Virus record (IMG/VR): IMGVR_UViG_3300005531_000016
Location: 1 to 41,809 of that record
Length of the DNA stretch: 41,809 bases
Source: a virus
Strand: one strand, 5' to 3'
Part shown: piece by piece, positions 14,401-32,780 of the stretch
Layout: each line of letters starts with the position of its first letter
How positions within the stretch are numbered: position 1 is the stretch's first letter
Notes under the pieces: model-generated
What the model saw: the letters and a program-made list of their open reading frames with translations, nothing else
Databases searched by the model: none
What the model was told of the DNA's origin: nothing
Made by a program: the position numbers and the translations under genes

Positions 14401-16172
14401 CGGTTCTAGATTTCCTGCAAATGCGGCGTGCCGAGCGTGCATACGATTACCTGGAGGGTTTCAAGAATTCACCGGAATTCGGCGAGATCGCGCACAAGAT
14501 AGGAAGCGGAAATGCCCCGGAGGGCTGGCGTCCAACCATGCTTCCACAGTTCCATGGCTACTTGTTCGAGCCGCATACGGCGGAAGTGCTTGACTGGTTT
14601 GCAAAAAGGATGAATGGCGGTGATGCCGGGGTAATCGACCGGGCGATGCAGGGGATCAATCACTTTTTACGGACGGCGGCATTTTTCAATCCGCTCATTC
14701 ACACACCAAACATCGGGGTGCATTGGGCCGTCGAGAAAGGCGTGACCGGATTTGGGCCGAAGAACTGGGGAACCATCCTCCGCACGGGATCACGCGCCAT
14801 TGATGCTGTCATCCATCAGAATCAGGATTTTCTAGATGCGCTCGATTCCGGCGCCCCGCTGCAATCGCAGAGGCTGGATAACGACGTTGTAAATAAGCTC
14901 ATTATTCAGCGCATGGGAAAAGAATTGGAATCGAATCCTGGTTATGCCGCAAAGATTGCCGGGGCTTTGGGCTACGCAAATCCGCTAAAGCTGGTTCGGG
15001 CCATCTATGACTTTTCCAACAAGGCCACGTGGATGACGAACGACATAGCCCTGCTCCAGGCAACGTATGAGCACATGGAACGAACTGGGCAACCATTCAA
15101 AGAAGCAGTTGCGGACGTTGCCAAGCACATACCGGATTATAGGCTGCCCACCCGCATTTTTGACAGCAAAGCGCTTGGCACGCTGATGAGCAATCCCAAT
15201 CTAACCATGTTCGGAGCGTACCACTACGGTGCATTGCGCAGTTACGGAGAAATGATAAAGGAAATGGCCGCAGAAAATGTTCCGCCAGCGCAACGGCTGA
15301 AATCGCTGGATCGTATGGCCATGCTCGGACTTGTCACATTCGCAGCCTATCCGGCAATGGATCAGCTTGCAAAACTTGTAACAGGAGACAAGACAGCGCA
15401 GCTCCGCCGCGCCGGAGCCAGCACCTTCATCTACAATCTCGCACAATTGCTCAAGGGAGATAAAACACCAACGGAGGCACTTCAAGCGGTGGCAACTCCG
15501 GCGGCTGGCACCAAATCCGCGGTGGAACTGGCATTTAACAAGGATTTGCGCACCGGGCGCGATATCTATGATTCATCGGCCCCAGCGCGGACGATTGCCA
15601 AGCAAGTGGGTCGCTACGCGCTAAAGAGTGTAAACCCGGTGGGCATGGGCATGGATTTGGAATCCGGCAAAAAAACACTGAAGCAATTGGGAGCTGGCCT
15701 CTTTGGCGTCAAAACGAACGTGCAAACTCCGGCAGAAGCGCTCGCTTCACGATTGCTGGCAAAGTCCATGGGAACCGCCGCGCCAGACGAGGATACTCTG
15801 GAACGCGCCACGATGCGGCGGACCTATGAACAAAGGCTGCGCGACAAGGAGATTACTCCGGCTGACGTTGCGAAAGATCGTGCCTCGGGAAAACTAAATG
15901 CGCACGATCAGGAGATTATCTTGCGCAATGCCGCGCGGACACCCTTGCAGAATGCCATGCGCAATCTTGGCCCCGAAGAAGCATTAAAGGTTTGGAACAA
16001 GGCGACGCCAGAAGAGCAGCAGCAAATCCGCACGCTGTTTGCCGGAAAACTAAGCTCCATGGGAAAAGTGCCGCCAGAGCGCCGCGAGCAGGTGCGCCAG
16101 CAGATTCTATTGGCCCTCCATCCGCACACTCCAGCGGCCGGCGGCCTGCCTCGCGTGTTTTCAGGAATCTGA
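11406..16172 (+). CDS. Giant ejection-type internal virion protein, 1588 residues
   Basis: The frame is open from a TTG at 11406 that overlaps the previous gene and is preceded by GAGAGG; a GTG at 11418 is an alternative. The protein has three copies of a short D(D/E)LDxFVxxY motif (about residues 7-16, 28-37 and 639-648), then helical domains (about 730-1100), a hydrophobic region with HFLRTAAFFNPLIHTPNIGV (about 1085-1105) and a charged C-terminal helical part. Size, place after two ejection-type genes, and mostly helical content match T7 gp16-like proteins that form the DNA-ejection channel. Unlike T7 gp16 I see no lytic transglycosylase E..S/GLMQ motif. A possible LPD-type mixture of domains remains open. 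Confidence 0.7.
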   Translation: MATAVSDDLDQFVANYRAKGVPKSSGDDELDQFVKSYSEEKSAPPDTRSPFGTLAERSARLGEPMIPLAPPKNLFVDTTKIPRNPFTNELELAPPIATEEEKQRAGTIGPRPNTEIPMPFGAAPAQVPDITGALPRAIAAGAYPGSFAEELKRRAGVTDAELQREQAGGLRLFDPAELMTESQQHEHPIATGALQAIGGLTTPENIGITAATAGIGEAPAAVRAGLSTLFAMQMAKGAYDAIPGIRDAWNRGDYAEVKRLATLAGVNTALAGAAAGHGVNEFREAAYGEPAPLTLPPGTVSAPLKVDEALGRGARRMQEFEANNAAREGMANLANAESAIERARQERINAPVAMPRTFNPDEYPRLLPGPIQGPETNPLEREATQVLEQRKPTGPQVVDRRRVGAGENLAPESPATLRKQVDMLAEGTNKVVYFPKGTENLPAPPDNAVVTNVPGDKPGSGIYYHDPSIKSEDIYSAVDNGTYGKLLGNVQTKQEAEKGNPGVLVSRDANGTEQKASVVDLRRKAIVRLQEKELNRQFPNGQVSVETPEKVISERQKEPAQPLPAKFRTDKAANIAAAQPTKEQMIDAFRTDKGRLETERRSASPEEQSLIDDRLATINQHLEELTGQKPLQKFVDRPGTDIDKFVEQYGKPSSSEQAEKAAVSPGDYVEASNGALAGKTLEVTKAGKSGIYVREGDGPIKFVKNGEYRRLEAAKEVKDLIGAGKRYSGADPRILKNLIPEPLREKLAEENRYVALSRNVQGGMYDLESQAAADMLRAREILKNAPGSPKDLETIYHSLEDSSIKLTPEQAKIREQYVKPLMDASREAYEKITGNKVAEGDEHVHRIAAERGGILDRILGGKGKLNAGNPLSKSAPGAKRRTMMALEDENGNRRVVSIKDNHVTAWEQGRPADMGRFRTPAQKGVDEYYDEKVMSGLEKLASDLGISHERTAKKLGGEEKIPGTFVDKSGKRWNVKQATTKEIEANTNIRYYKNALASAVLDFLQMRRAERAYDYLEGFKNSPEFGEIAHKIGSGNAPEGWRPTMLPQFHGYLFEPHTAEVLDWFAKRMNGGDAGVIDRAMQGINHFLRTAAFFNPLIHTPNIGVHWAVEKGVTGFGPKNWGTILRTGSRAIDAVIHQNQDFLDALDSGAPLQSQRLDNDVVNKLIIQRMGKELESNPGYAAKIAGALGYANPLKLVRAIYDFSNKATWMTNDIALLQATYEHMERTGQPFKEAVADVAKHIPDYRLPTRIFDSKALGTLMSNPNLTMFGAYHYGALRSYGEMIKEMAAENVPPAQRLKSLDRMAMLGLVTFAAYPAMDQLAKLVTGDKTAQLRRAGASTFIYNLAQLLKGDKTPTEALQAVATPAAGTKSAVELAFNKDLRTGRDIYDSSAPARTIAKQVGRYALKSVNPVGMGMDLESGKKTLKQLGAGLFGVKTNVQTPAEALASRLLAKSMGTAAPDEDTLERATMRRTYEQRLRDKEITPADVAKDRASGKLNAHDQEIILRNAARTPLQNAMRNLGPEEALKVWNKATPEEQQQIRTLFAGKLSSMGKVPPERREQVRQQILLALHPHTPAAGGLPRVFSGI

Positions 16173-16414: not shown

Positions 16415-18043
16415 ATGAAGCGGCTTCTGCTGATTTTCATGGTATGCCTCATGGTCCCGCTTGGGCTGCGGGCGCAAGTCTCCGTAACCGGGAACCTAAA
16501 GGACGTTGGTGTCGCAAACGTTACAGGATCGAACACGTTCGTGCGATTTACGCTGACAAATTACGGGTCCAACATACCGAAGGTTGTAGGCTCCAATCTG
16601 ATTGCTGTGCCCGTAAAGGATTTCCATCCCGACATAAATGGGAACATCAGCGGAACAATCCAGCCAAATTCTTCGATTTCGCCAATCGGCACGCTATATC
16701 AAGTTTGCATTTTCTACCAGGGACAACAGTTCCGCTGCGCGACGTATTTGATCAGCGGCCCGTTTGACCTGGGTACGGCGGTGCCAATCAGTTCAACGCC
16801 AATCGTCGGACCAAACCAGCTTGTGACACAAATTTTTCTCTGCCCTCAGTTCTCTGCCTCAACGACATGGACATGCGTCCACAATTTTGGAGACTTCAAT
16901 GTCGGATGGCAGCTCTACGACCAAAACAACAACGGAATCGGATTTCCCAACACCGTTTCCGAGCCGGATGCAAACACCATTGTTTTTACATGGATTACTC
17001 CGCAGGCCGGAAGGGCGGAGATATTGCACGCTGGCGCTGTGAATATAGCGACAAATCAGCCGAACGCGGTGGTGCAAAATCCGCTGGGCAGCCAAACGGT
17101 TTGCTGCTTTCCGCTCGCTGTCACGAGCGCGTTCAATGCCACCGGAGGAGGGTCCTTTTCCGGCACATTTTCCGGGAATCCTACCTTCTCTGGCAATCCG
17201 GTATTTTCAGGAAACCCCGTATTTTCCGGCGGCGTAAAGGCTGGATTTTTTTCTACGGCAGCGGCCAATCCGGCACAAACCGGACTGTTGCGCCTGGCAG
17301 CCGCCGATTCGATTGCATTCCGCAACAACGCAAATTCCTCCGACCTCGCGCTTGGCATAGACGGCTCGAACAATCTAAGACTTGACGGTTTTCCAGCGGA
17401 TGTGGTGGCACGCCTTGTTTCGAGATCGGCAAACCCATCGCAAACAGGAAGCATCTCCCTTGCGGTCGCCGATTCAATCTCTTGGCGAAACAATGCCAAT
17501 AGCGCGGACTTGGCTCTTGGATTGAACGGCAGTGACCGTCTCGTATTCTCACTTGATCCGGTTGTCACGGATGCCTCTACTGACACGCTTACGAACAAAA
17601 CGCTAAATTCCCCGGTTGTAAGCACTCCGGTCATAAATGGTGCCAGCACTGGAACCGGGATTCAGGGAAATGCTCCTAGGCTCCTAACAGACGACGCCAC
17701 CGGATCGGCTGGGAATCCGTTATGCCGGGCCTCGGGCGGCGGATCAACCGCATGTTCGGTTACAAGTATTCCCTATCGTCGCGTCGTTTCCAGCAACAGT
17801 TGCGCGAATACTGGATCGGCTGGCGGCGCAACGCAAACCTGCACCATCACAATCTCGCCAGCCGAAGCGGATACCAGCTATCACGCAATCTGCGGCGGCG
17901 AGGGCACCGTAACCGGATATCCACTCATGCTCGGTGTAAGCAGCAAGGGAACAACCACGATTACAGTCACATATTCCGATGGAACAAACAACATGGCAAC
18001 AGCTTCGGGATGGTCCACGATTTCATGCGAAATTCTACGATGA
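16415..18043 (+). CDS. Exported fibre-like protein with internal repeats
   Basis: The 542-residue protein begins with a classic Sec signal peptide (MKRLLL, hydrophobic core, GLRAQ). The N-terminal 220 residues are beta-rich with paired cysteines. About residues 246-270 hold four copies of an FSGNP-type pentapeptide. Two related repeats of about 40 residues follow (about 283-325 and 338-379), each with NP.QTG, AADSI/VADSI, RNNANS.DLALG and a final strand, a module typical of phage tail fibres. The C-terminal domain (about 455-542) has six cysteines and ends SCEILR. Fibre repeats joined to an export signal is odd. The stop overlaps the next start (ATGA). Confidence 0.75.
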   Translation: MKRLLLIFMVCLMVPLGLRAQVSVTGNLKDVGVANVTGSNTFVRFTLTNYGSNIPKVVGSNLIAVPVKDFHPDINGNISGTIQPNSSISPIGTLYQVCIFYQGQQFRCATYLISGPFDLGTAVPISSTPIVGPNQLVTQIFLCPQFSASTTWTCVHNFGDFNVGWQLYDQNNNGIGFPNTVSEPDANTIVFTWITPQAGRAEILHAGAVNIATNQPNAVVQNPLGSQTVCCFPLAVTSAFNATGGGSFSGTFSGNPTFSGNPVFSGNPVFSGGVKAGFFSTAAANPAQTGLLRLAAADSIAFRNNANSSDLALGIDGSNNLRLDGFPADVVARLVSRSANPSQTGSISLAVADSISWRNNANSADLALGLNGSDRLVFSLDPVVTDASTDTLTNKTLNSPVVSTPVINGASTGTGIQGNAPRLLTDDATGSAGNPLCRASGGGSTACSVTSIPYRRVVSSNSCANTGSAGGATQTCTITISPAEADTSYHAICGGEGTVTGYPLMLGVSSKGTTTITVTYSDGTNNMATASGWSTISCEILR

Positions 18044-21000
18044 AAAGACTGGCGCAAGCATGCTTCATTCTGATGGCATGTGCATTCGTGCGCGAACCCG
18101 CTCTCGCGCAGATGCAGACGGACAGTATCGCGGCACGCGGAAACGTAACCGCCAAAGTTCTGGCAAACTCGCAAACAGTAACGATTGCCGGAACGACGCC
18201 GAACGTTTCAGGCGGCAACGTGTTTCTTACCAACAACAGCGGCCCCACAACGATAACCAACTTCACCGGCGGGATCGACAGCCAGCAGATCGTCGTGGTA
18301 TGCGGAGATACAAATACCACCATTCAGAACAACGCCAATATCGCACTTACTGGCGGAACAAACTATGCGTGTGCCCTGAATCAGGGGATTCAGCTCGCCT
18401 TCGTTGGCGGAAAGTGGATTCAGACCGGCACGGCGACTGGAGGCGGCGGAGGCGGTTCCAGTCCTGCTGGAAATAACGGAGACGTGCAGATACGGAATGG
18501 CACATCCCTTTCCGCGGCTCATATCAATGACAATGGAGCCACCATTGGCATCTCCGAAGACACCAATTGGAAGGGGCCAAATCCCTCGGTAAATTTGTTC
18601 CAATATGGCGCTTATCTCGGCTCAACAACACCGCCAACCATTTCTTGCACAACGGCGGCCTCATCGGCGAATTTAACCTGCTCCGGCGGGACCGGTGATT
18701 TTGCGGTCGGCCACGGAGTGGCCGTGCCAATGGCTGGACCGGCCCCAGTCGTGACCACGCCAAATGCTCCCGTCTCCATCGTGTCGCTTTCAATAAGCAG
18801 TAATGTGGCAACGATAGCAATGGCCTCGACAGCCGGATTCAGCAACGGGTCATCCGTCGTCGTTTCGGGTGCCAGCGACTCGACGCTCAACGGCACCTAC
18901 ACTGGCGTAAACACGGTAAATGCAGGCACGTTCACCGCGTCGATTACGCACGCAAATTGCTCCCCATGCACCATTGGAGGGAGCGCTACGGTGGTCGCAA
19001 GCACACCAGCCCTCGTTACTCCTGTTGGACAGGTTGGCGGCTCGACAACCTACAATTACAAAATCGTAGCTCGGGACTTTAACGAAGGACTGTCCGCCGC
19101 CAGCACCGCAATTACTACGACTTCGGGATGGGCGACGCTTGGCGTTCAAACTTACTCGATTGCCAATAATGGCTGTTCATGGAACAGCACAAGCGGGCTG
19201 GAGACCTTTACCACGACCGCGGCTCACAACATCCCCAATCAGCCGGACATTGAGATTTTCGTATCGATTAACGGTGTCGTGAATTTGACCGGCGCATTCG
19301 TGACGGCGGGAGCGCCAACTGCAACGACTGTTACCGTCGCGATGCAGGGAATCGCCACACAGACGCAGACATGCCCATCGGGCGGGACGTTAAAAGTCGT
19401 CGCGCGAAATTTCGTGCAATGGACTCCCCAGCCATATCAGGCTCTTGGTTGGCTTGTTTACCGGTCTGTAGGCGCAGGAGCATATTCTCTTGTAGCCGTG
19501 CTCAACGGCCAAGACTCGAGCTTCTATGACTGGGGATATGGAAGCCCGGTAAAATCCGGCGCCCCGGCGGTCTACATCCCATCGACGCCGCCGAGTTCGC
19601 CGCAAAATGGCACGCTGGCCGCGCTCATCACGGCGATCAACGGAACGACCGTTACACTGTCCAGTGCGGCTTCCGCCAGCCTTACAACTACGGTTCTGCA
19701 TGACAATTCTCCGAACGTGATGGCGGCTTGCAACTCGCTTGGAACTGGAGGGCTTGATATCTACTATCCCGGCGCGAACTCCTTCATGGTGTTCAATTCG
19801 CCGCTAAAACTTTATGGCTGTTCCTCGGGACAGATGCGCCATATCCTGGGCACTCAAATCGTAGCCAACGAACCGATTATCCCGAAGAGTTTTACTTTCT
19901 TCGAGGGGCGTGCGCTCGGCAACAACAGCCAGATTCCGCCGTTCATGACCAGGCCAGTTACCAATATGTTCTGCGGCGTGATGCCATGTTTCCTGCTGAC
20001 TTTCCAGCCGACTGTCGGTGGCCCCATCAGCTCGATAACCCTGAAAGACATAGCCATACAGTCAAGCCAGCCCTACGTGAGCGGAATCTACATGGATCAG
20101 GATGCCACCGGGGCGGGTATAACCTCAATTACTCTTGACAGTGTGTATGTATCGGCGAACAAGGGAGGCATTGCACTCCGCTTTGGTGGCGGTTTTTACT
20201 TCAACATCCTCGGAGGATTTTACGGCATCACGGGGGCCAACGGCGGAGACTGGGGCTATCCTCCGGCAATTTGGGAGACCGTAAACCAGGGACTAGGACA
20301 GAACACGCAGGGGCTGTCTTATCTATCGCAGATGAAAAATGCGACGATAGAAGGCGGCGAGTTTTACTTTGACACAAACAGAGAACAGTTTTTTGGAAAT
20401 TTCGGGACATGGCCAGGCCAGTGGGAATTCAGCAACATCCTTTCGGAAAGCAATCAGTATCCGATACTGCATTTCAACACGTCGGCGTCAACATTTTTTC
20501 TTAACGGCATCAGCGTGAAAGACCTTTCCTACGCGGATCCGCTGGGCAACATCGCCACGCCGCTAATTGAGCTTGGTGATTCCCGCTTCAACTTCATCCG
20601 CTTTTCCACAAAGGGAGGCTTCAGCGTTTGCGGCAATGGCTCCCAGCCTATTTTTGCGTCGATTACTACCAGCCCGGCAGTGGATATTGATGGAGGCACA
20701 AACTGCGGAACTATTGGGCTGTTTAACTACGCTGTACGCTCAAATGGATCATTTGCTATCGTTGGAAAATCAACCTTCGAGTCGTACGGAGTATCGACAA
20801 TTGGCTATGCCATGGGTGCTCCAACGATTTCCAGCGTGAATACTGTATCCGGCAGTCTTGCGGCTGGCACCTACTACTACTCCATTCGCGGGGTGGACAG
20901 AAATGGAAATGTTACAACGAGCTCGCCTGTCGTCGGTCCCTTCACATCGAATGGAAGCCAAGCCCTGACACTGAATTTCAGCCTGGTGCCTGGACAGGCT

Positions 21001-21762
21001 TTCACGATGCTGTGCCGAAGTAATAGCGGTCCAGTGATTAATAGCTGCGCTGGATTCGGACCCTCACAATTCATTTCTGGAACGAGCTTTACGGACAACA
21101 CGCCACAATTCAACTACTTTAACTCCAACACAGAACCAGCGCTGAATGCCAACGGAGCTTCCTTCGCATCAGCACAAGCCGTTTCTTTGGGAGCCTCTGG
21201 CCTTTCCAGTTATAACTTGGCACTTACTGGCGGAGGGTTTTCCAGTATTCAGTCTGGCACTTTCACGGCGAATCGCACCATAACTTGGCCGGACGCATCT
21301 GGAACACCGGCTCTGCTCGGCGTCGCGCAAACCTTCACACAGCCGCAAACATTCACATCTCTCAGCGGCACAGCCTCAAGCTTAACGATCAATTCGCTTA
21401 CGCAGGGAAGCGAAACACAAACCGCCCTTACCCACCCGCCATTTACCGTGCTTATCCCCGGAGCACTCACCGCAACATCAACAGCGGCCACATGGACTCT
21501 CGACAAAGCGATAACAGTAACGCGAGTGCAAATCCAAACAAGGGTAGCCCCATCGGGATGCAGCCAGAATGCGGTCATCCGCTTGACCGATGGGTCGGCC
21601 AATCAGGATGTGGCCATTTCTGGATCATCCAATGATTCTGGCGGCATCGCTCAAAATTATGTTTCTGGAGCTGCGCTTACGATCAGCGTGCAAACACCAG
21701 CAAGCGGATGCGCTACATCTCCAGGCGATGCGCAGGTAGTGGTCCAGTATCGGAACCAATGA
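18040..21762 (+). CDS. Very large exported fibre/tailspike-like protein with beta-helix
   Basis: I use the ATG at 18040 overlapping the previous stop, which gives 1240 residues with a signal peptide MKRLAQACF...PALAQ; the frame is open further upstream but without a better start. A short beta domain is followed by a poly-Gly linker (about 130), a NLFQYGAYLG segment resembling the start of pectate-lyase-type tailspikes, FN3-like parts (YNYKIVARD and YYYSIRGVDRNGN), and a central right-handed beta-helix-like region (about 660-900) with runs such as SITLDSVYVSANKGG and NATIEGGEFYF. The C-terminus is a compact beta domain ending VVVQYRNQ with paired cysteines. Likely a receptor-binding or polysaccharide-binding/degrading protein. 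No catalytic residues can be assigned. Confidence 0.75.
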   Translation: MKRLAQACFILMACAFVREPALAQMQTDSIAARGNVTAKVLANSQTVTIAGTTPNVSGGNVFLTNNSGPTTITNFTGGIDSQQIVVVCGDTNTTIQNNANIALTGGTNYACALNQGIQLAFVGGKWIQTGTATGGGGGGSSPAGNNGDVQIRNGTSLSAAHINDNGATIGISEDTNWKGPNPSVNLFQYGAYLGSTTPPTISCTTAASSANLTCSGGTGDFAVGHGVAVPMAGPAPVVTTPNAPVSIVSLSISSNVATIAMASTAGFSNGSSVVVSGASDSTLNGTYTGVNTVNAGTFTASITHANCSPCTIGGSATVVASTPALVTPVGQVGGSTTYNYKIVARDFNEGLSAASTAITTTSGWATLGVQTYSIANNGCSWNSTSGLETFTTTAAHNIPNQPDIEIFVSINGVVNLTGAFVTAGAPTATTVTVAMQGIATQTQTCPSGGTLKVVARNFVQWTPQPYQALGWLVYRSVGAGAYSLVAVLNGQDSSFYDWGYGSPVKSGAPAVYIPSTPPSSPQNGTLAALITAINGTTVTLSSAASASLTTTVLHDNSPNVMAACNSLGTGGLDIYYPGANSFMVFNSPLKLYGCSSGQMRHILGTQIVANEPIIPKSFTFFEGRALGNNSQIPPFMTRPVTNMFCGVMPCFLLTFQPTVGGPISSITLKDIAIQSSQPYVSGIYMDQDATGAGITSITLDSVYVSANKGGIALRFGGGFYFNILGGFYGITGANGGDWGYPPAIWETVNQGLGQNTQGLSYLSQMKNATIEGGEFYFDTNREQFFGNFGTWPGQWEFSNILSESNQYPILHFNTSASTFFLNGISVKDLSYADPLGNIATPLIELGDSRFNFIRFSTKGGFSVCGNGSQPIFASITTSPAVDIDGGTNCGTIGLFNYAVRSNGSFAIVGKSTFESYGVSTIGYAMGAPTISSVNTVSGSLAAGTYYYSIRGVDRNGNVTTSSPVVGPFTSNGSQALTLNFSLVPGQAFTMLCRSNSGPVINSCAGFGPSQFISGTSFTDNTPQFNYFNSNTEPALNANGASFASAQAVSLGASGLSSYNLALTGGGFSSIQSGTFTANRTITWPDASGTPALLGVAQTFTQPQTFTSLSGTASSLTINSLTQGSETQTALTHPPFTVLIPGALTATSTAATWTLDKAITVTRVQIQTRVAPSGCSQNAVIRLTDGSANQDVAISGSSNDSGGIAQNYVSGAALTISVQTPASGCATSPGDAQVVVQYRNQ

Positions 21763-21763
21763 C

Positions 21764-23665
21764 ATGAGAAAACTACTTATACTTTCATTGTTTCTTTTTT
21801 TCACCACAAGCCTCGCGGCGCAGAACAACCCGCTGGCGTCCCGGCCCTACGGCCAAGAGACCGTTGCTTTCAGCGCGACTCCGGCATTCAACTATGCGAC
21901 GAGTTACGGAAAGAAAATCGTTCTAACTGGCAATGTAACCAGTTCCACGGCCACGGGCATGGAACCTGGCATGTATCCCACCTTGGAGGTATGCCAAGAC
22001 GCGACCGGGGGCCGCACATTCGTTCCGCCAACTGGTTTCAACGGCTGGGTAGCGATTCCATCATCCGCGAATGCTTGCATTGTCGAGTTCCTTTACTACG
22101 ACGGCGTACAAGCCACTGTAGTAACAACGGCGACTGGAGGCGGAGGCGGCTCCGGCACAATCAATTCCGGCACAAGCGGAAAAATCGCTATCTACTCCGG
22201 TTCCACCACCGTCTCAAGCGATGCCAAGCTCGATGACGGCCTCACTACGGCAAATACCTTGACATATACCGATACCGGAGGAATGGCGGCAAAATCCTTC
22301 AATGCCACGGGCACAGGCGCCGCCGTAGTCAATGGCACAAATGGGGCATGCGGCGCTGGCGTTGCCGGACATTCCCTGTTATGCCTTGGAGACTCGCTCG
22401 CGCTGACAGCGAAGATCAGCCTGAATGGCGGCGCGTTTCTTTCCATACCGCAATGGTCGAATGATTCCCCGACGCCATTTGGGCCGCTTTGCGCCGATGG
22501 AACATTTCCACGCCTCATAACTGTTCCCATTGGATCCGCCGGGCAGCCCCTTCTTTCCACCGGATCCAGTTCATGTTTCGGATACGGCGCTCTTGACCTT
22601 TCAAGTTCCTCGAATGTTACCAATCGCCTTCCCAAGGCAAACATGGCCCTGACAACCGTGCATACGGATCAGACCAACACATTTACAGCAGCGGGAACCA
22701 TCGACCTAAGCGCAGCAACTTCATCGGCAGCGTTTCGTATACCGAATATCGCCGGAGCTTCCACAACTACGAATGGAACGCTGGCCTACAACACCACAAC
22801 GAACAATTTTGTCGGCGGCATGAATTCAGGAAATGCCATCATTCCCGTAACGACGATTACTCCGACAAACAACGACTGCGTAAAATGGGTGGTGACCAGC
22901 GGGAATTTCCAGCTTGGTGATGTCGGATGCGGAGGAACGGTTTCGCTCTCCAGTCTCACGGCAGCGACAACGGCAAATACCATTGCCAATGGAAACAACG
23001 GCCAAACATGGCAATGGTCCCTTACATCTGCTGGAGGCGTGGGATTCAAAGTCACTGAATCCTCGGCAAGCACCGCCACGGGAACACCCTATCTGTTTCA
23101 GGTGTCCGCGCTATCGGGATCGACGGCAAATCCAGCCAGATTTGATTTCAACGGAAACGGCGTAGTAGTCAATACATCCGGGCTGCTGACTTCGATTGGC
23201 ACGGGGGCTATTGATGCAACAAAGCTTTCCGGCCAGATAAGCACGTCCAACCTGCCATCCTCCAGCAAAATGCGCACATGCGCGATTATCGTGGGTTCCG
23301 ATGGCGGCTCGGCGCTCGCGAATACGGACATTGCTCCTCTCGGAAGGCAATGTTTTGTTCCTTACGCGGCAACCGTAGTCGAAATCGAAGTGGCGGCGGA
23401 TGGCGGAACGCCGAATGTAATCGTGGCGAAAAATCACGCTGGAACACTGACCGATTTGCTCAGCAGCGCACTGGCGACAGCCGCGTCTGGCGGAATCGCG
23501 TGCTCGAACAGCGGCGGCACGGCTGGGCTTGACGGAACGACGACGTGCTCGGCGACGCTGCAAAATACATCGCTGGCCGCCGGTGATTACATCGAAACGC
23601 ACTCTGCTACCGCTGGCGGAACCGCGAAACGCATGTCCATCTTCATCACGTTCACGGTGAACTGA
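21764..23665 (+). CDS. Exported fibre-like protein
   Basis: The 633-residue product starts with a strong signal peptide (MRKLLILSLFLFFTTSLAAQ). An N-terminal beta domain with two cysteines is followed by a GGGGGSG linker, a fibre-like shaft made of short Ala/Thr/Gly-rich repeats (about 135-380), a further repeat region with a TAATTANTIANGNNG stretch, and a C-terminal cysteine-containing beta domain starting near MRTCAIIVG and ending FITFTVN. The layout (signal, head domain, Gly linker, shaft, C-terminal knob) parallels the preceding gene. The gene starts one base after the preceding stop codon. Receptor binding is the likely role. Confidence 0.72.
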   Translation: MRKLLILSLFLFFTTSLAAQNNPLASRPYGQETVAFSATPAFNYATSYGKKIVLTGNVTSSTATGMEPGMYPTLEVCQDATGGRTFVPPTGFNGWVAIPSSANACIVEFLYYDGVQATVVTTATGGGGGSGTINSGTSGKIAIYSGSTTVSSDAKLDDGLTTANTLTYTDTGGMAAKSFNATGTGAAVVNGTNGACGAGVAGHSLLCLGDSLALTAKISLNGGAFLSIPQWSNDSPTPFGPLCADGTFPRLITVPIGSAGQPLLSTGSSSCFGYGALDLSSSSNVTNRLPKANMALTTVHTDQTNTFTAAGTIDLSAATSSAAFRIPNIAGASTTTNGTLAYNTTTNNFVGGMNSGNAIIPVTTITPTNNDCVKWVVTSGNFQLGDVGCGGTVSLSSLTAATTANTIANGNNGQTWQWSLTSAGGVGFKVTESSASTATGTPYLFQVSALSGSTANPARFDFNGNGVVVNTSGLLTSIGTGAIDATKLSGQISTSNLPSSSKMRTCAIIVGSDGGSALANTDIAPLGRQCFVPYAATVVEIEVAADGGTPNVIVAKNHAGTLTDLLSSALATAASGGIACSNSGGTAGLDGTTTCSATLQNTSLAAGDYIETHSATAGGTAKRMSIFITFTVN

Positions 23666-25123
23666 ATGATGCGAGTCGCAATTCTGTTTTTCGCGTGCGC
23701 CATTTTTCTAGGGATTGCTGGCGGCCCCGCTTCGTCGCAAACATTGCCGGGTGCGCCAACCGCGCTGTGCAACAACAGCACGACATCATCTTCGAGCACT
23801 CTTAGCTGCACGATGAATCACGCATCCGTGACGAACGAGAAAATAATCGTTTCCTGCGGCGCATTCGGCTATTCCACCGCTCCAACGATAACTGTAACGG
23901 ACAACGCTTCGGGAGGCTCGAACACCTACACGCAAGACGCGCAAGCGACGAATACAGGCGGCCCTGAGAGGGTGGCGACTTTCAGCGCGGACGTCGTGCG
24001 CGGAGGGGGAAGCACGCTCACCGTTACCTGTCATTACTCGCCAGCCTCGATTGACGTGGACATGCTCAGTGCGGAATTTGCGAATCTCGCCACGGGGGCG
24101 AAGGATTCGAGCACAACAGCAATTCCAACTGGACTTGCTCCGAATACGCTGAACCAGATTGCCACCAACACTTCGACGGCAAGGAACACACTGGCATATT
24201 CCGCCTGTGACCCGCACAAAGGGCTTTCTCCGCAAGCGGGTCCCGGCTGGACCGCATTGCAACAAACTTCCGTTGACGAGGTGACTGACCAATATCGCGT
24301 CTATCTCGAAAGCGGCTCTCAGGTTGTCGCGTTTCTCGAAGGTAACAACACGACAAATGACGACTTGGCTTGCACTTTTGCGGCCTATGCGCTTGCCGAC
24401 CAAACTGCCGTTGCTGGCGTGGCTGTTGGCAACAGTTCGGCGAGTCTTCAATTCGGCGCCGGCAGCGGTTCTACTACCTGGAGTTGGACGGATACGGTCT
24501 CCTCAAGCGGCTCCAACACTCTCGCCATCGTGGATTTGTTCATAAACGGCACGACGCCGCCATCGGCAGCACCGACGTATGGCGGAACGTCCATGACTCT
24601 CATCACTAACATTACGGACCAGACGAATCTCGAATCGCATTACGTCTACAAACTCGTGAATCCGCCAGCGGGCGCGAACACGGTAAGCGTCAGTTTTGGC
24701 AGCGCAAAAACAGGGGCCGGAATATCCACGAATTTCTTCAACGTGAATCAGTCCTCGCCGACTTCGGCGGCGCAGACGGATAACGGCAGCACGCTGAACC
24801 CGGCGAATCTGACAGTTTCCTCGGCGGCGAATCATCTGGTTTACACGAGCGTAGGCATTGCGAATAAATCCGCTTGCCCCGCATCTGGAGTTGTCGTGGA
24901 CACGAACAATCTCAATGTCGGCCAGATTCCAACTGCGGTGATTGGGCATGTAGCGGGAGCTTCCAGCGTGACCGCTGGGTGGAATCTGCTGACTACCAAC
25001 GGGATTCCGTCCTGCCCCGGAACAAACGGAACTGGAATCGAGCGCACTCACATTGCATTTGATATCGCTTCCGCCAGCGGAGTCATCCCAAGTCCCGTGC
25101 GCCACCGCGCGATTGTGTACTGA
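23666..25123 (+). CDS. Exported beta-sandwich protein, fibre block
   Basis: The 485-residue protein starts directly after the previous stop, with a double Met and a signal peptide ending near ASSQ. The mature part is almost all beta: two related halves, each with a T.T.SD/DNA.GS.N pattern and a late SVSFGSAKTG or VTCHYSPAS strand, as in tandem immunoglobulin- or jelly-roll-like domains of secreted proteins. Cysteines are few and paired. No shaft repeats are visible, so this looks more like an adhesin or virion-accessory protein than a classic fibre. The final tail is basic (PVRHRAIVY). Confidence 0.7.
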   Translation: MMRVAILFFACAIFLGIAGGPASSQTLPGAPTALCNNSTTSSSSTLSCTMNHASVTNEKIIVSCGAFGYSTAPTITVTDNASGGSNTYTQDAQATNTGGPERVATFSADVVRGGGSTLTVTCHYSPASIDVDMLSAEFANLATGAKDSSTTAIPTGLAPNTLNQIATNTSTARNTLAYSACDPHKGLSPQAGPGWTALQQTSVDEVTDQYRVYLESGSQVVAFLEGNNTTNDDLACTFAAYALADQTAVAGVAVGNSSASLQFGAGSGSTTWSWTDTVSSSGSNTLAIVDLFINGTTPPSAAPTYGGTSMTLITNITDQTNLESHYVYKLVNPPAGANTVSVSFGSAKTGAGISTNFFNVNQSSPTSAAQTDNGSTLNPANLTVSSAANHLVYTSVGIANKSACPASGVVVDTNNLNVGQIPTAVIGHVAGASSVTAGWNLLTTNGIPSCPGTNGTGIERTHIAFDIASASGVIPSPVRHRAIVY

Positions 25124-25137
25124 TGCATGGAGGTCTG

Positions 25138-28100
25138 ATGCGAAAAGCCCTGGCATTGCTGCTCTTCATATTAGTTTCTGCTTTGCCGCTGAACGCGCAA
25201 GCGCAAGTGACAGGAACCGGCACAATTTCCGGCGTTGGCCAAATTACCGTAGTGCCCCTTCCAACGGCGACCGCATCTCCTACAAGCCTAGGATTCGGAA
25301 ACGTGACACAGGGACAATCCAGTGCCTCACAGGCTGTAACGCTGCAAAATACGGGAACGACGCAGCTTACCATTGTAAGCGCGGTCACCACGTTGCCATA
25401 TAGCGCAACAACCACTTGCGGAGCAACACTGGCGGCGGGAAACTCCTGCGTCTACAATGTCGTTTTTTCTCCCACCGGTACCGGCTCTTTCCCCGGCACA
25501 CTTACAATCAATGACAACTCGACCACCACTCCGCACGTTATCTCGCTTGCCGGAAGCGGCGTGCCACCCGCCCAGCCAGGAGCTTCCCTCACTCCCGCTT
25601 CATTCAATTTTGGAAATCAAACAACCGGAACAACAAGCGCCTCGCAGCCGTTTACATTGCAAAATACGGGTGGCGCGGCCCTGTCCATTTCCAGCATTAC
25701 CGCATCAGCTTCGTTCAGCCAGACGAATAATTGCCCGGCAAGTCTGGGAGCCGGTGCAAGCTGCCTGATCAATGTGACATTCTCGCCATCGACCACTGGC
25801 CTGATTCAAGGGTCTTTGAGCGTTGTTGACAACGCGGCGGGAAGTCCGCAAAGCGCGAGCTTGAGCGGAACGGGAATCCCTCCATCATCCGGCGGCGGGG
25901 TGCCAGCAACGGCGGGATGGTTCTCGATCCCGAATACAGCATGGGCATCACTCTGTCCCAATGCTACAGGTGCGCGGCCTGATGTACAGGGAAATTCCGG
26001 CTGTGGCGCGGTAGTTGACGCCTGGGCAGGCGGCTACCTTGACACGAAGAGGCATCGTCTGTGCTTCACTGGCGGCGGCCACCACGATTACTACGGCAAT
26101 GAAATTTACTGCCTGAATCTGGACACGCTGACAATCGCTACTCAGAACGTGGCTTCAAATGCCTCAACGCTGAATACGAATACCAACTCCTACGACACCA
26201 TGCCGGATGGAACGCCGGGTGCCCGCCACACCTACGGCGGATTGGCCTACTATCCAGACATTGATTCCGCCATTTTCATGGGTGGCGGTCCGCCCAACCC
26301 TGGCGGCACAGTGTCCACCACATGGGCAATTGATCAGTCAAAGCTGAATCCCGCAACGACGATGGGTGTTCAGCCGAGCGGGGCCGCAAAAAACATGAAT
26401 CCTACGGTGAGCGGCGGCACGCTTGACGGACAATTCGGCAATTGTTCGGTATATGACCCCAACACGCAGAAAATGCTGCTCTGGGAGCCCTGGCAATCAC
26501 AGCCCGGCAATCTGTGGAACTACGACCAGTCCACGAATACATATACGCATCTTGCGACATTCGGAAGCGGCTCTGTTTTCATGGATGGCAACCAGAGTTG
26601 CGCTCTCGACCCCGTGCATGAGGTGCTCTATGCCATAGGTAACGGAAAGCTGCTGCACGTCAGCGTGGCGAGCGGCTCCAGCTTCACCGTAACGGATTCA
26701 TTTTCGCGCAGCGGATGCAATACAGCGCAGACCAGCTCCGGGTATCCCGGAGTTTCTTTTGACCAGCGCGATGGCGGCATCGTTGTTTGGAATGGCGGCA
26801 ATAGCATAACGGTGTATAGTCCGGCGTCGGACACTTGCTCCACTGAAACATATTCTGGCGGACCAACCACGAAGGGTAGCGCGGGAACTTTCGGACGCTG
26901 GCAATATGACAATGTTCTCGGCGTGCATGTGGTATGCAACGAGAACAGCGAGAACTGTTTCACGCTTCGCCGCAACGTGGACGTGGCCGCGGTGAATGGC
27001 TTCTCCAATAGGGTGGCGGGCATCAACACGCCCGGAGGATCAGCCTCTATTGTTAGCTGGCAAAACTTTGATAGCTATCCTGTAACGAACAAGCAGCAGT
27101 ATTTCCAGACCAACATCGCTTCGCAATTGACAACCGACTGGACGCAGCCGAATACGGATGGAGGAGCTCTCCATTTCGCTTTCAAAAACGGCGATTTTCA
27201 AGCGGGTCCGGGATGGTTCAACTACAACTTCTGCGCCGCGCTGAATTGCCTCTACGGACAAGGCTCCGAGTTTTACGTGCAATACAAGGAGCGTATAAGC
27301 GCCGCCGCCCTCTCCCGCTCAAGCTGGGATAGCGGATTCACCGACTGGAAGATGGCGATTCTGCGGGAGGGCGACAGCAACACGCAGCAGGCCACGAATT
27401 GTTCCAGTACGCCGACTGATATCGTGCTCGATTCCGATGCCGGACACATCGCCAGCGCGGTTATGCCGTGGGTGTACGTGAACTGCGGCAACGCTGGGAC
27501 GCTCAATTTCCTCAACTCGCCATTTCAGCCAATCCAGTACCCGCTAGCGAGCGGTGCTACAGACTTGCTTGACCAGCCTGCCTCTGGCGGTCCGCACTAT
27601 GGCAGTGGCGTGAACGGCTCAACAGTTCCGGTTACAGACCCGACTGCCTGGAATTTCACGGCCAATGAATGGTTCACAATTCAGGCCCATGTCAAGATTG
27701 GCACGTGGAATACGGCCTCATCCGTAATCGAAATGTGGGCGTGCCACCAAGCCCAGCCTTGCCGGCTGGTGACCAACGCGAGTGATGCCGCGCTGAATGA
27801 CCTTGGAGGAAGCGTAACCGACAAGTTCGGCGCAATCGTGCTCTTGCCATACGCGACGGGCGCGACGTGGCTCACGAACGTGGATTACTGGTACGACGAT
27901 CTAATCGTATCCAACCGGCGCATCCCTGATCCTGATGTTTCTACGCCGAATGCTCCTGACTCACTCTCGCTATCGGCCATCTCCAGTTCGAGCATAACGG
28001 TCAACTGGAGAGTCAACTCGAACAATGGCACAGCCCAAGACGATACGGGGTTTTTGGTGGAGCGATGCACGGGAACCGTGGCCGTGTGCATGCCCAATCC

Positions 28101-28287
28101 GCAGTCTGGCTTCACGCAGATTGGCACGACCGCCGCACACGCTTCCAGTTTTGTTGACAACACAGTGAGCGCGGGGCACACCTACACGTATCGCGTTCGC
28201 GCGAAAAACGCGAATGGAAATTCCGCATACACCGTCGCCATCTGCTTCAATGGCGGAACGACGTGCGGAGGAACGGCACAAATCTAA
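25138..28287 (+). CDS. Exported multidomain protein: two ASH domains, propeller, LamG-like, FN3
   Basis: I choose the ATG at 25138, just after GGAGG, giving 1049 residues and a signal peptide MRKALALLLF...NAQAQ. Two ASH / choice-of-anchor-D-type domains follow (about 45-145 and 148-247), each with SLGFGNV or SFNFGNQ, LQNTG, a cysteine pair, and F(S)P..TG. Next is a Kelch-like beta-propeller (about 254-611) with repeated GG..Y and WxYD segments, then a LamG/concanavalin-like sandwich (about 637-929) with a YWYDDLIVS end strand, and a C-terminal FN3 domain (about 936-1041). Such a mosaic is typical of secreted acidobacterial proteins and is unusual in a phage. It probably binds polysaccharide; whether it is virion-borne is unknown. 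Confidence 0.78.
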   Translation: MRKALALLLFILVSALPLNAQAQVTGTGTISGVGQITVVPLPTATASPTSLGFGNVTQGQSSASQAVTLQNTGTTQLTIVSAVTTLPYSATTTCGATLAAGNSCVYNVVFSPTGTGSFPGTLTINDNSTTTPHVISLAGSGVPPAQPGASLTPASFNFGNQTTGTTSASQPFTLQNTGGAALSISSITASASFSQTNNCPASLGAGASCLINVTFSPSTTGLIQGSLSVVDNAAGSPQSASLSGTGIPPSSGGGVPATAGWFSIPNTAWASLCPNATGARPDVQGNSGCGAVVDAWAGGYLDTKRHRLCFTGGGHHDYYGNEIYCLNLDTLTIATQNVASNASTLNTNTNSYDTMPDGTPGARHTYGGLAYYPDIDSAIFMGGGPPNPGGTVSTTWAIDQSKLNPATTMGVQPSGAAKNMNPTVSGGTLDGQFGNCSVYDPNTQKMLLWEPWQSQPGNLWNYDQSTNTYTHLATFGSGSVFMDGNQSCALDPVHEVLYAIGNGKLLHVSVASGSSFTVTDSFSRSGCNTAQTSSGYPGVSFDQRDGGIVVWNGGNSITVYSPASDTCSTETYSGGPTTKGSAGTFGRWQYDNVLGVHVVCNENSENCFTLRRNVDVAAVNGFSNRVAGINTPGGSASIVSWQNFDSYPVTNKQQYFQTNIASQLTTDWTQPNTDGGALHFAFKNGDFQAGPGWFNYNFCAALNCLYGQGSEFYVQYKERISAAALSRSSWDSGFTDWKMAILREGDSNTQQATNCSSTPTDIVLDSDAGHIASAVMPWVYVNCGNAGTLNFLNSPFQPIQYPLASGATDLLDQPASGGPHYGSGVNGSTVPVTDPTAWNFTANEWFTIQAHVKIGTWNTASSVIEMWACHQAQPCRLVTNASDAALNDLGGSVTDKFGAIVLLPYATGATWLTNVDYWYDDLIVSNRRIPDPDVSTPNAPDSLSLSAISSSSITVNWRVNSNNGTAQDDTGFLVERCTGTVAVCMPNPQSGFTQIGTTAAHASSFVDNTVSAGHTYTYRVRAKNANGNSAYTVAICFNGGTTCGGTAQI

Positions 28288-28301
28288 GAGGAGGAACACG
28301 C

Positions 28302-28919
28302 ATGAGGAAACACATTCTTTCCCTGCTTTTTTGCCTGGCGGGAACTGCGGCTTTCGCACAAAGTCCGCAGAACTCCAACTCGATGTCATTCACCGTGGTA
28401 GCCTTGCCGCCCGGACCAACCATTACTTCGCTCGGCGGCCTCTCTCCCACTGGAAAGATTTACGCTGGCTCTGTCATGCAAATCATCGGCAGCAATTTCA
28501 CGAGCTCATGTGCCGCCCAGGTTGATGGCACAACGCAGCCAGCAAGCTCTTTCACATACAAGTCCAGCACGGAGATTGACTACACCATTCCCGCGAGTCT
28601 TTCCGCGGCAGCCCACACGATGGTGATTTCCTGCCCGCTTCCGGCACTGACCATGAATACGCCGGTGACACTCCCAAACGCCATAGCGGGGCAGAGCTAC
28701 TCTGCCGACCTGGCATCCCTTGCGAAATTGACCGGAGGAATCCCGCCATACAAGTTCAGCCTTACGGGTGGCTCTCTTCCAACGGGGCTCGCTTTATCGT
28801 CCAACGGCATTGTCACTGGTACGCCTTCTGGTGCTGGCTCTTTTAGCTTTGGATTCACCGTTACCGATTCCTCACAGTTATCTTCCCTGCGCCGTTTTCG
28901 CATTTTTCTTCCCGTTTGA
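28302..28919 (+). CDS. Exported two-domain Ig-like protein (IPT-like and He_PIG)
   Basis: The ATG at 28302 follows an excellent AGAGGAGGAAC site and yields 205 residues with a signal peptide ending AAFAQ. The first domain (about 38-120) resembles IPT/TIG: SLGGLSPTGKIYAGSVMQIIG, an S.TEIDYTIPASL strand pair and two cysteines. The second (about 125-198) is a good He_PIG putative-Ig match: A.AGQSYSADL, GGIPPYKFSLTGGSLPTGL and GIVTGTPSGAGSF. Both families are frequent in secreted proteins of soil bacteria. It closes the exported block, which suggests a small accessory adhesin. Confidence 0.75.
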   Translation: MRKHILSLLFCLAGTAAFAQSPQNSNSMSFTVVALPPGPTITSLGGLSPTGKIYAGSVMQIIGSNFTSSCAAQVDGTTQPASSFTYKSSTEIDYTIPASLSAAAHTMVISCPLPALTMNTPVTLPNAIAGQSYSADLASLAKLTGGIPPYKFSLTGGSLPTGLALSSNGIVTGTPSGAGSFSFGFTVTDSSQLSSLRRFRIFLPV

Positions 28920-28932
28920 AAAAGGAACATTC

Positions 28933-29196
28933 ATGTGCAATGCCACTGGACCAAAGTTTTTTTTGCCTCCCGCTCAACTCGGCTCTGCCGGAGCCGCAGG
29001 AGCGCCGGTGGCTTATGCGAGTTCTCCGCAGCAAGTCTCTAACGTGAGTGGAGGGCTGCCAGCCACAGCGCCACAGCCAACGCTGCCACCAATTTCACCG
29101 CTGCCGATCCAGAACAACCCCCTTGCTGGCGGTCCGCTTTGGGGCGTGAATCCAGGGGTGATCCCGATAATTTCCAGACTTATGAGCAGTTCCTGA
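28933..29196 (+). CDS. Small Pro/Ala-rich protein with Met-Cys start
   Basis: The ATG at 28933 follows AAAGGAAC and gives 87 residues starting MCNATG. The sequence is rich in Pro, Ala, Gly and Leu with no predicted secondary structure beyond a C-terminal hydrophobic segment (GVNPGVIPIISRLMSSS). The Met-Cys start and Gly/Pro composition resemble the two ejection-type proteins at 9493 and 10049, so a minor internal virion protein is possible. It lies at the junction of the exported block and the lysis genes. Confidence 0.6.
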   Translation: MCNATGPKFFLPPAQLGSAGAAGAPVAYASSPQQVSNVSGGLPATAPQPTLPPISPLPIQNNPLAGGPLWGVNPGVIPIISRLMSSS

Positions 29197-29205
29197 GAGT
29201 GCCCC

Positions 29206-29493
29206 ATGTTCAATTTCCCGCCTATAACGCTGGGAGCGCTTGTGCTCCTGGCGACGCAGTTCTTTCTCTGTCTCCGCTGGATGTATCGCAGCTACAGAAA
29301 TGCCGAGATCAACCGGCGCTTCGTCAAAGACGTTGCCACAAACCACCTGCCCCATCTGTACCAGGCGATGAAGCAGATCGCAAGAGCCAGTGGCATAGAG
29401 CTGGAAGACCCTCCTCCGGTTCAGTGGATCGATTTCGACAACGGCAATGGCCATCACAAGAAATTCTCTTCCCTATGGCACCGGATGACCTGA
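29206..29493 (+). CDS. One-TM membrane protein before the lytic enzyme (holin candidate)
   Basis: The 95-residue product has one hydrophobic segment at about residues 7-24, a basic stretch right after it (RWMYRSYRNAEINRR), then a soluble tail with NHLPHLYQAMKQIA and a PPPVQWIDF motif. This predicts N-out/C-in topology by the positive-inside rule. The gene overlaps the lytic transglycosylase by 19 bases, so a role in lysis (pinholin or regulator) is attractive but unproven; a single TM with a long cytoplasmic tail is not the standard holin form. Confidence 0.65.
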   Translation: MFNFPPITLGALVLLATQFFLCLRWMYRSYRNAEINRRFVKDVATNHLPHLYQAMKQIARASGIELEDPPPVQWIDFDNGNGHHKKFSSLWHRMT

Positions 29494-29945
29494 TCGCGCT
29501 TGCCAAGAGCCTTGCACCGCCGCTGGACCCGGCACTTGTGTGCGCGGTGATCGAGCAGGAGAGCGGATGGAATCAATGGCTCAATCGCTACGAACCGGAT
29601 TTCAGCGCCAACCCCCGTTACAAACCCACCATACTCATCCAATCACAAGACTTCGTGAAGCGAGCCACTTTTGAAATTTCCCTATCAACAGAAATCGTGA
29701 ACCGAGCCATGTCCTGGGGGCTGATGCAGGTTCTTGGACAGACTGCGCGAGAGAATGGATTTCTTCTGCCGATGGCCAGCCTTTGTGACGCCGAGTTTGG
29801 CATTCGCATCGGCTGCAAGATATTGCTGCGCAAAATCACCCTGAGCAACGGCGACAAAGTGGCCGGGCTACAAGCATGGAACGGAGGAGCAAACCCAAAT
29901 TACGCGGCAGAAGTAATGGCAAGAGAAGCGAGATACCAACAGTAA
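29475..29945 (+). CDS. Soluble lytic transglycosylase-type endolysin
   Basis: I choose the ATG at 29475, giving 156 residues and a complete SLT domain; the frame is open upstream but that part shadows the previous gene. The catalytic glutamate is Glu29 in the EQES motif, GLMQ lies at residues 82-85, and the closing motif LQAWNGGANPNYAAEVM is a variant of the SLT AYNAG..V..YV block. The enzyme would cleave the MurNAc-GlcNAc bond of peptidoglycan with formation of a 1,6-anhydro end. No signal peptide is visible, so release would need a holin. It is the only peptidoglycan-cleaving enzyme I find in the window. Confidence 0.85.
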   Translation: MAPDDLIALAKSLAPPLDPALVCAVIEQESGWNQWLNRYEPDFSANPRYKPTILIQSQDFVKRATFEISLSTEIVNRAMSWGLMQVLGQTARENGFLLPMASLCDAEFGIRIGCKILLRKITLSNGDKVAGLQAWNGGANPNYAAEVMAREARYQQ

Positions 29946-31498: not shown

Positions 31499-31610
31499 AT
31501 GCGTCATGGCGTCCCATCCCCTCTTGCCTCTGCCCGATGAGGACTCTTCCGGCTCATCTGCTACAATTGCCGCCGAGGCAATCGAGTCATCAGCCCAAAA
31601 GGGGGGTTCG

Positions 31611-32780
31611 ATGGCTCAAAGGCGTTTTCAAAGAGGCACAGTTTTTCTGCGAGGAAAGAATCCAGTATGGGTTGGCCGATACCTGGAGGATGTAATTCTG
31701 CCGGGTTCTCCCAACCCTGTCCGCGTGCGAAAGTCGGTGGTTCTGGGCACCAAAAGAGAGTATCCAACCAAGCGCCTGGCACAGCGCCGGATGGAAGTTA
31801 TTCTCGCCAGGATCAACGATTACTCCTATCGTCCCGGAAGGGTAGCCACGGTCGAGCAGTTCGCCGAAAGGTGGATGGCGCAAGTCGTTTCCAAGCTGAA
31901 GTCCTCCACCGCGCACGGCTACGCAGCGCATTTGAAAAACCAGATCGTTCCGCTTCTCGGCAAGTTGCGGCTTGACCAATTGGGAGTGGAAAACCAGCAA
32001 GTCTTTGTCACGCAGATTGCCGGCAAGGTCTCGCGGACGACCACAAAGAACATCCTTGCCACGCTGTCATCCATGCTTGGCACAGCCAAGAATTGGGGAT
32101 ATGCCTGCGAAACCGTTCATCTCAACCGGCTTGTCTTTCCAGAGCGAGGGGTGCGGCAGCGACGAACGGGTTTTTCTCCTAGCCAGGCGGCCCAGATCAT
32201 CGCGACGGCCCAGGGGCAATACCGGGTGATGTTTGCTCTTGCGGCAATGACTGGCCTGCGCGTAGGAGAAATACTAGGCCTACAAACCTCGGATTTCGAC
32301 TTCGAGCGCCGGATTTTTCATGTGCGCCGTTCGGTCTGGCGCGGCAAGCTACAAACCCCTAAGAGCACCAGCAGCGAATCTTCCCTTCCCCTCCCTGACG
32401 CCTTGGCAGCGATCGTGCACGAGTACATCGCCACGATACGGCCAGGGTTCCTTTTCCTCAACAATCGCGGCAGTCTCTTCATTGCCGAAAATGTCGTGCG
32501 CCAGCAACTCGTGCCAATCCTGCGTGCGCTCGGCATCCCGATAATCCCACGCCAAACTAGCTTCCACGCCTTCAGGCATCTGCATACCAGCATGCTGCTG
32601 GCGGCGGGAGCACCCGCATCCGTGGCCCAGGCACAACTGCGTCATGCCGATCCGCGCGTAACCCTTGGCATTTATGGGCATGTCATTGGCGACGAGCAGC
32701 GGCAAGCCGTGGAAAAAGTAGCGGCGATTCTTGTCCCAACTTGTCCCAAACAGAAGCCGGTCGGCGAATGGATTCAATGA
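31611..32780 (+). CDS. int: Tyrosine recombinase (phage integrase)
   Basis: I prefer the ATG at 31611, preceded by AGGGGGG, because family members begin with a basic RRFQRG segment; an in-frame ATG at 31506 would add 35 low-complexity residues. In the 389-residue form the N-terminal arm-binding part and SAM-like core-binding domain (about 75-170) precede a catalytic domain with Arg217 (TGLRVGEI), His319-x-x-Arg322 (HAFRH), His345 (LRHADPRVT) and nucleophile Tyr355 (IYGH). All key residues are present, so it should be active in site-specific integration and excision. Its strong upstream promoter fits independent expression. Confidence 0.93.
   Translation: MAQRRFQRGTVFLRGKNPVWVGRYLEDVILPGSPNPVRVRKSVVLGTKREYPTKRLAQRRMEVILARINDYSYRPGRVATVEQFAERWMAQVVSKLKSSTAHGYAAHLKNQIVPLLGKLRLDQLGVENQQVFVTQIAGKVSRTTTKNILATLSSMLGTAKNWGYACETVHLNRLVFPERGVRQRRTGFSPSQAAQIIATAQGQYRVMFALAAMTGLRVGEILGLQTSDFDFERRIFHVRRSVWRGKLQTPKSTSSESSLPLPDALAAIVHEYIATIRPGFLFLNNRGSLFIAENVVRQQLVPILRALGIPIIPRQTSFHAFRHLHTSMLLAAGAPASVAQAQLRHADPRVTLGIYGHVIGDEQRQAVEKVAAILVPTCPKQKPVGEWIQ

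Follow-up and report, generated by a model that had tools for sequence, protein, structure and literature searches.

The window, i.e., the whole stretch of DNA analyzed (G000, a virus record of 41,809 bp), codes for a capsid protein and an adaptor of SU10 type, a transglycosylase, an integrase, a nozzle-like protein and large proteins that are probably ejected. Both markers of SU10-type podoviruses, SU10_MCP and the SU10 adaptor, were matched. Since an integrase gene is present (31506..32780), the phage is probably temperate. The features considered here are listed below, and genes are named by their first coordinate.

213..713, + strand: small predicted exported protein with a Sec signal (166 aa, 4 Cys in the mature part), encoded ahead of the head genes
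737..1231, + strand: small predicted exported protein (164 aa, 2 Cys), perhaps the tip of a head or collar fibre
2710..3924, + strand: major capsid protein of SU10 type (PF17236, E=5.8e-37), without signal
5922..6638, + strand: SU10-type adaptor (PF24175, E=3.5e-7), without signal
6641..8563, + strand: probable tail nozzle by position, without signal
11406..16172, + strand: large probable internal or ejected virion protein by position, without signal
16415..18043, + strand: fibre 1, with a predicted signal (residues 1-20), docking domain (residues 21 to ~131) and then fibre repeats; 12 Cys
16475..16807, + strand: predicted virion-docking domain of fibre 1, directly behind the predicted cleavage site (AlphaFold2 pLDDT 87)
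18040..21762, + strand: fibre 2 (1240 aa, 18 Cys), with a signal; its start overlaps the stop of 16415
21764..23665, + strand: fibre 3 (633 aa, 12 Cys), with a signal
23666..25123, + strand: predicted exported protein 4 (485 aa, 8 Cys), with a signal; fibre role from position only
25138..28287, + strand: predicted exported protein 5 (1049 aa, 24 Cys), with a signal, two ASH/Ig repeats, a central region and fn3 near the C-terminus
28302..28919, + strand: predicted exported protein 6 (205 aa, 2 Cys), with a signal and TIG and He_PIG Ig domains
29139..29945, + strand: transglycosylase (lysis; PF01464, E=3.9e-8), adjoining the 3′ end of the block, without signal
31506..32780, + strand: integrase (phrog_1, E=3.6e-58)

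Judged by the capsid protein, the relatives of the window in IMG/VR are G005 (75%), G004 (67%), G002 (67%) and G003 (65%), and two partial contigs, G001 and G006, are near-identical to the window. The probable nozzle is found at 45-56% in G003, G004 and G005, and the product of 11406..16172 shows partial homology to a 3440-aa protein of G005. The window also carries a tRNA-Met (CAT) at 1313-1387, between the small exported genes and a presumed scaffold gene, and, among the head genes (5003-5947), a gene for a 314-aa protein that matches phrog_1574 (unknown function) and appears glycosyltransferase-like by eye.

The initial annotation had proposed that six genes in the fibre position, and two more at 213 and 737, begin with Sec signals. 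The N-termini were read directly and also scored with a rule of our own, which asks for a positive n-region, an uncharged h-region and a -3/-1 motif. The rule called 8 of the 32 CDS of at least 100 aa in the window, namely 213, 737, 16415, 18040, 21764, 23666, 25138 and 28302, and all eight passed on both counts. None of the other virion genes (head, adaptor, nozzle, ejected proteins) was called. The predicted signals, each followed by a Gln, are:

213: MTNRKKAIALAFAVPLLAILIIALCGMAENTVA, then Q (the rule cuts after GMA; the cut between TVA and Q is a reading by eye)
737: MKKFLSAARNGFAGFGVLAMLVLLAVSLFA, then Q
16415: MKRLLLIFMVCLMVPLGLRA, then Q
18040: MKRLAQACFILMACAFVREPALA, then Q
21764: MRKLLILSLFLFFTTSLAA, then Q
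23666 (alternative start 23669): MRVAILFFACAIFLGIAGGPASS, then Q
25138: MRKALALLLFILVSALPLNAQA, then Q
28302: MRKHILSLLFCLAGTAAFA, then Q

Neither a lipobox Cys (SPII lipoprotein) nor a twin-Arg (Tat) motif was seen by eye in any of the eight N-termini. When the rule was applied to a control set of 254 CDS (lambda, SU10, N4 and T4, plus stretches of Tunturi_3, 4 and 5), only lambda Lom, lambda Rz and the N4 muramidase were called, all of them exported or membrane proteins, and no fibre was among the calls. SU10 itself gave no call in 42 CDS, unlike the window, where every fibre was called. Among other environmental phages with fibre genes that share the repeat motif of 16415, 0/20 of these fibres were called, with a single call across all 197 genes of that comparison; the difference from the six of six block fibres of the window is significant (Fisher p = 4e-6). 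Judged from the sequence, the eight predicted Sec signals are textbook cases and more than chance. Sequence comparison further revealed that the signals of the window's kin keep the signal-peptide grammar while their letters diverge.

The Cys counts of the mature parts (4, 2, 12, 18, 12, 8, 24 and 2 for 213, 737, 16415, 18040, 21764, 23666, 25138 and 28302, respectively) are even in 8/8 cases, in line with the paired cysteines first noticed by eye. We pooled the block proteins of the window, G003, G004, G005, G007 and Tunturi_2 that have any Cys. The count was even in 29 of 33 (p=5e-6), and in 23/25 once homologues were removed (p=1e-5). Signal-less genes of the same phages had an even count in 47 of 88 cases, and the two groups differ (Fisher p=3e-4). 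The even counts therefore point to disulfide folding after real export, in an oxidizing compartment.

Fibre 1 is the gene of the block that is most readily tied to virions. Residues 1-131 of its product, comprising the signal and the domain behind it, are conserved in G005 (67%), G004 (46%) and G003 (32%), and the remainder is unrelated or swapped. A conserved N-terminus with a variable body is the usual pattern for the attachment part of a fibre. A plain Foldseek search of the PDB with the domain found nothing at E≤0.001, and the domain was identified through VIA-align and through BFVD, where several matches are phage tail proteins. With VIA-align, the best solved matches of the 16415 domain model were two proteins of cyanophage A-1(L), the tail fibre (Z 8.6 over residues 2-103) and the neck fibre (Z 8.3 over residues 1-97), which scored above unrelated entries; a Bxb1 tail-tip chain (Z 7.4), an Ur-lambda tail-tip chain (Z 7.3, residues 2-94) and the XM1 neck (Z 6.5) came next, among transthyretin-like folds. 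A second docking family, found in siphophage G007 (L011 type) and in Terriglobia prophages, was modelled separately; its best match was again the A-1(L) fibre (Z 9.8, also above unrelated entries), with 7.2 for the next one. The AlphaFold models of the two families thus share the N-terminal fold of A-1(L) (8KEC/8KEG), Ur-lambda (9E7M), Bxb1 (9D93) and XM1 (7KJK), with variable bodies behind it; the known chains, however, start the domain at residue 1-2 and have no signal, whereas in the window a Sec signal stands ahead. Genes with a docking domain lie within virion or tail operons in the window, in G003-G005 and in the prophages L093, L095, L100, L103 and L056. Sequence and models together make a strong case that 16415 encodes a fibre with a virion-docking domain right behind the signal. 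The fibre repeats that the initial annotation had described in this gene are visible; the beta-helix that it had assigned to 18040 found no Pfam match.

The docking domain also carries cysteines. In the A1-type domain, two Cys lie ten residues apart and face each other across a predicted hairpin; both are present in the window, G005 and G004, and both are absent in G003. In the A2-type domain, another Cys pair occurs in 11 signal-bearing sequences and in 0/8 signal-less ones, although the carriers share ancestry and are not phylogenetically independent. The Cys density of docking-domain homologues with and without signal did not differ significantly (p=0.11).

In Terriglobia genomes, homologues of the docking domain come in both signal-bearing and signal-less forms. 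The signal-less ones are tail-fibre genes in tail operons, and in L104, L105, L109, L111, L112 and L160 the domain begins within a few residues of Met1. In several signal-bearing homologues no residue separates the cleavage site from the domain (distance 0). The domain tree implies about four gains or losses of the signal, two or more of which sit on branches with good support. Because homologues occur both ways and the state changes on the tree, the signal appears to be a movable extra ahead of a domain that does not need it; and since the signal-less homologues start with the domain, cleavage would restore an ordinary N-terminus. These results bear on the idea that the hydrophobic N-terminus is an uncleaved anchor or assembly tag, with fibres that fold in the cytoplasm and plug an N-terminal helix into the tail. 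Known phage tails do assemble in the cytoplasm, and a buried N-terminal helix is conceivable. Such a helix, however, would have to account for a signal-peptide grammar kept despite divergence of the letters, for cleavage sites placed where the docking domain begins, and for even Cys counts indicative of an oxidizing compartment, and we regard this explanation as very improbable.

Among the other exported proteins, fibre identity is good, on sequence grounds, for 18040 and 21764. G005 has a single fibre, of 1209 aa, and the part of it that follows the docking domain is homologous to the body of 18040 (28%, E=1e-11), so that in G005 the docking domain and an 18040-like body are fused in one protein. 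Across 152 aa, the 21764 product is 41% identical to the exported fibre G003:13297-17766; an exported fibre of G010 matches it at 45%. For 23666, 25138 and 28302 fibre identity is positional, and most fibre bodies gave no matches in Pfam and PHROGs. The C-terminal half of 25138 is common to the Terriglobia prophage block L098. Its ASH module is found also in signal-less glycoside hydrolases of Erwinia and Pseudomonas phages (S6 gp95, the phiEaP8 enzymes and Skulduggery), which occupy tail or spike gene positions but differ from 25138 in having no signal and a different catalytic part. Of the two small genes upstream, 213 recurs with the same signal in the near-identical contigs G001/G006, and 737, with a weak Gp53-like_C match (E=0.06), keeps its signal in a 60%-identical orthologue (G005:48651-49316).

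The block could accordingly be mixed, with fibre 1 and 18040/21764 as exported fibres, and 23666, 25138, 28302, 213 and 737 as secreted cargo, depolymerase-like or host-derived. Spikes and depolymerases, however, are usually virion parts in phage genomes, and C-terminal modules are traded mostly between exported fibres of different phages. A division of this kind finds some backing in that a docking domain was recognized in fibre 1 only, and in the ASH module that 25138 has in common with phage glycoside hydrolases, one of which is a cellulase by experiment (phage S6, PMC9544554). We consider it quite unlikely for the block as a whole, although some of 18040, 21764, 23666, 25138 and 28302 may be secreted accessories. 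As a separate observation, the C-terminal fibre modules of L044:15835-18360 (G005:55835-58711) and of the Terriglobia siphophage-like prophage L103:7467-9410 are alike (53% over 222 aa), a likeness at sequence level that suggests a common pool of exported fibre tips.

To learn how far the trait extends, the block was sought in other phages and in Acidobacteriota genomes, as had been advised at the outset, and was found in kin phages, in Terriglobia prophages and in isolates. Tblastn against INPHARED with 16415, 18040 or 21764 gave no matches. Exported fibre blocks are present in G003 (six genes), G004, G005 and siphophage G007, and exported fibres occur in several kinds of Terriglobia prophages, including Mu-like ones. 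Three isolated Acidobacteriota phages, Tunturi_1 (PP887698), Tunturi_2 (PP885685) and Tunturi_4 (PP885687), have signal-bearing, Cys-rich fibre or spike genes in the virion operon like those of the window, to which they are not recently related by the comparisons made. The signals are on gp12, 13, 14, 16 and 17 in Tunturi_1 and Tunturi_2, and in Tunturi_4 on the tail genes gp113 and gp114 at one end, with none in the first 45 kb. The genes concerned are annotated as tail fibre, tail spike, pectin lyase or virion structural protein, and the long ones have 10-34 Cys. The tail fibre gp15 of Tunturi_3 (PP885686), an Acidobacteriota podovirus whose host strain, Tunturiibacter psychrotolerans X5P2, is also that of Tunturi_2, has a homologous docking domain but no signal, and 1 Cys in 494 aa. 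Since the Tunturi_5 fibres examined also have no signal, the trait is common but not universal. The proposed Acidobacteriota link is supported for the trait, through isolates and Terriglobia prophages; for the phage of the window it is only indirect, as no match to its capsid was found in 389 Terriglobia genomes. The group to which it belongs consists of soil phages that probably infect Acidobacteriota.

Some further loci were noted during this search. A phage-derived chromosomal locus is conserved in Terriglobia (L179:4810-19001, L180:5338-18747, L182:5667-19901 and L183:5733-19501), and is perhaps gene-transfer-agent-like. It has a portal (PF04860, E=1.7e-54), a head-tail adaptor (phrog_442) and a signal-bearing fibre of 1530-1560 aa with a docking-like domain, which ends in a GDSL hydrolase in L179, the sole one examined. 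As this phage-derived locus has a signal-bearing fibre, the trait may be old in Terriglobia. Weak matches in chromosomal proteins of 1100-1700 aa were considered as TonB receptors, and this assignment was rejected: they are signal-bearing fibre-like proteins, several of them in the phage-derived locus. In G007 a segment (L011:3100-5550) is inverted relative to its flanks, splits the tail-tip protein and swaps fibre parts; it is either a fibre cassette that can invert or an artefact of assembly. The tail-tip protein of a Terriglobia prophage (L056:1504-6345) has a C-terminus that is intein/HINT-like by eye.

The initial annotation had left two uses for the secreted proteins: attachment to virions outside the cytoplasm, or decoration of the host during lysogeny. 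In its general form, the latter holds that the proteins are released or else remain with the infected or lysogenic cell, in its periplasm or at its surface; they would then hide receptors (superinfection exclusion), cover the host or serve as decoys, and the virion would use other adhesins. Signals with a disulfide signature are what ordinary secreted proteins have, the phage of the window has an integrase, Ig-type domains such as those of 25138 and 28302 are frequent in bacterial surface proteins, and lambda has a signal-bearing protein, Lom, encoded next to tail genes. But the docking domain that follows the signal is the part by which known fibres attach to the virion, the signal-less homologues belong to tail operons as tail-fibre genes, and the only long fibre in the fibre position of G005 carries a signal; no other obvious long adhesin was seen in the window or in G005. 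Moreover, the same kind of block is present in Tunturi_1 and Tunturi_2, podoviruses that form plaques and in which neither an integrase nor a recombinase is annotated (PMC11924767), so that lysogenic decoration is less likely as the main role. We judge host-directed secretion to be unlikely, although host decoration may occur as a side effect.

Signals, even Cys counts and the docking domain favour attachment outside the cytoplasm, and we think it likely that the block encodes exported, cleaved and disulfide-folded periplasmic fibres and accessory adhesins that dock on virions at lysis. The fibres or spikes and accessory adhesins of this probably temperate SU10-type phage would be expressed late with the virion operon, and each protein would pass through Sec to the periplasm. 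Signal peptidase I would remove the signal, leaving an N-terminal Gln, and the protein would fold there as a disulfide-bonded fibre. In fibre 1, cleavage would expose the transthyretin-like docking domain, which elsewhere is the N-terminus of fibres on the tail or neck. Particles without fibres would assemble in the cytoplasm, and once the lysis enzymes open the cell, the periplasmic fibres would meet the particles and dock. Export is the best-supported step, and is well supported by the sequences; that the signal is cleaved, that disulfides form and that docking takes place at or after lysis is what we infer. Late docking is not unreasonable, because the T4 record has it that gp11 can join later, and gp12 once the phage is complete; these proteins resemble the fibres proposed here in being added late, but are cytoplasmic and have no signal.

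The assembly of tails and fibres of dsDNA phages is described as cytoplasmic. The pIII protein of filamentous phages is a virion adhesin that is Sec-exported and disulfide-folded in the periplasm; it is unrelated. Filamentous phages are put together in the membrane and need no lysis, whereas the phages of the window group are tailed dsDNA phages. In the open-access literature we found no description of Sec signals on the fibres of tailed phages, and the main text of the Tunturi phage paper does not mention signal peptides (PMC11924767). Fibres and Sec export are each known; as far as we checked, the two have not been described together in tailed phages. The chances seem to us about even that these phages represent a separate pathway of tailed phages, in which adhesins are made outside the cytoplasm and the virion is completed at lysis, a pathway common in Terriglobia phages, kept in a phage-derived chromosomal locus, and with the signal repeatedly gained or lost. 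If the whole group exports its adhesins and completes its particles at lysis, then assembly order, host folding factors (Dsb, signal peptidase) and lysis timing would become part of infectivity, and the cell that makes the fibres, as well as cells nearby, could become coated with them. The trait could serve as a genomic hint for Terriglobia phages, whose host prediction is poor, and the idea is open to direct test in existing isolates.
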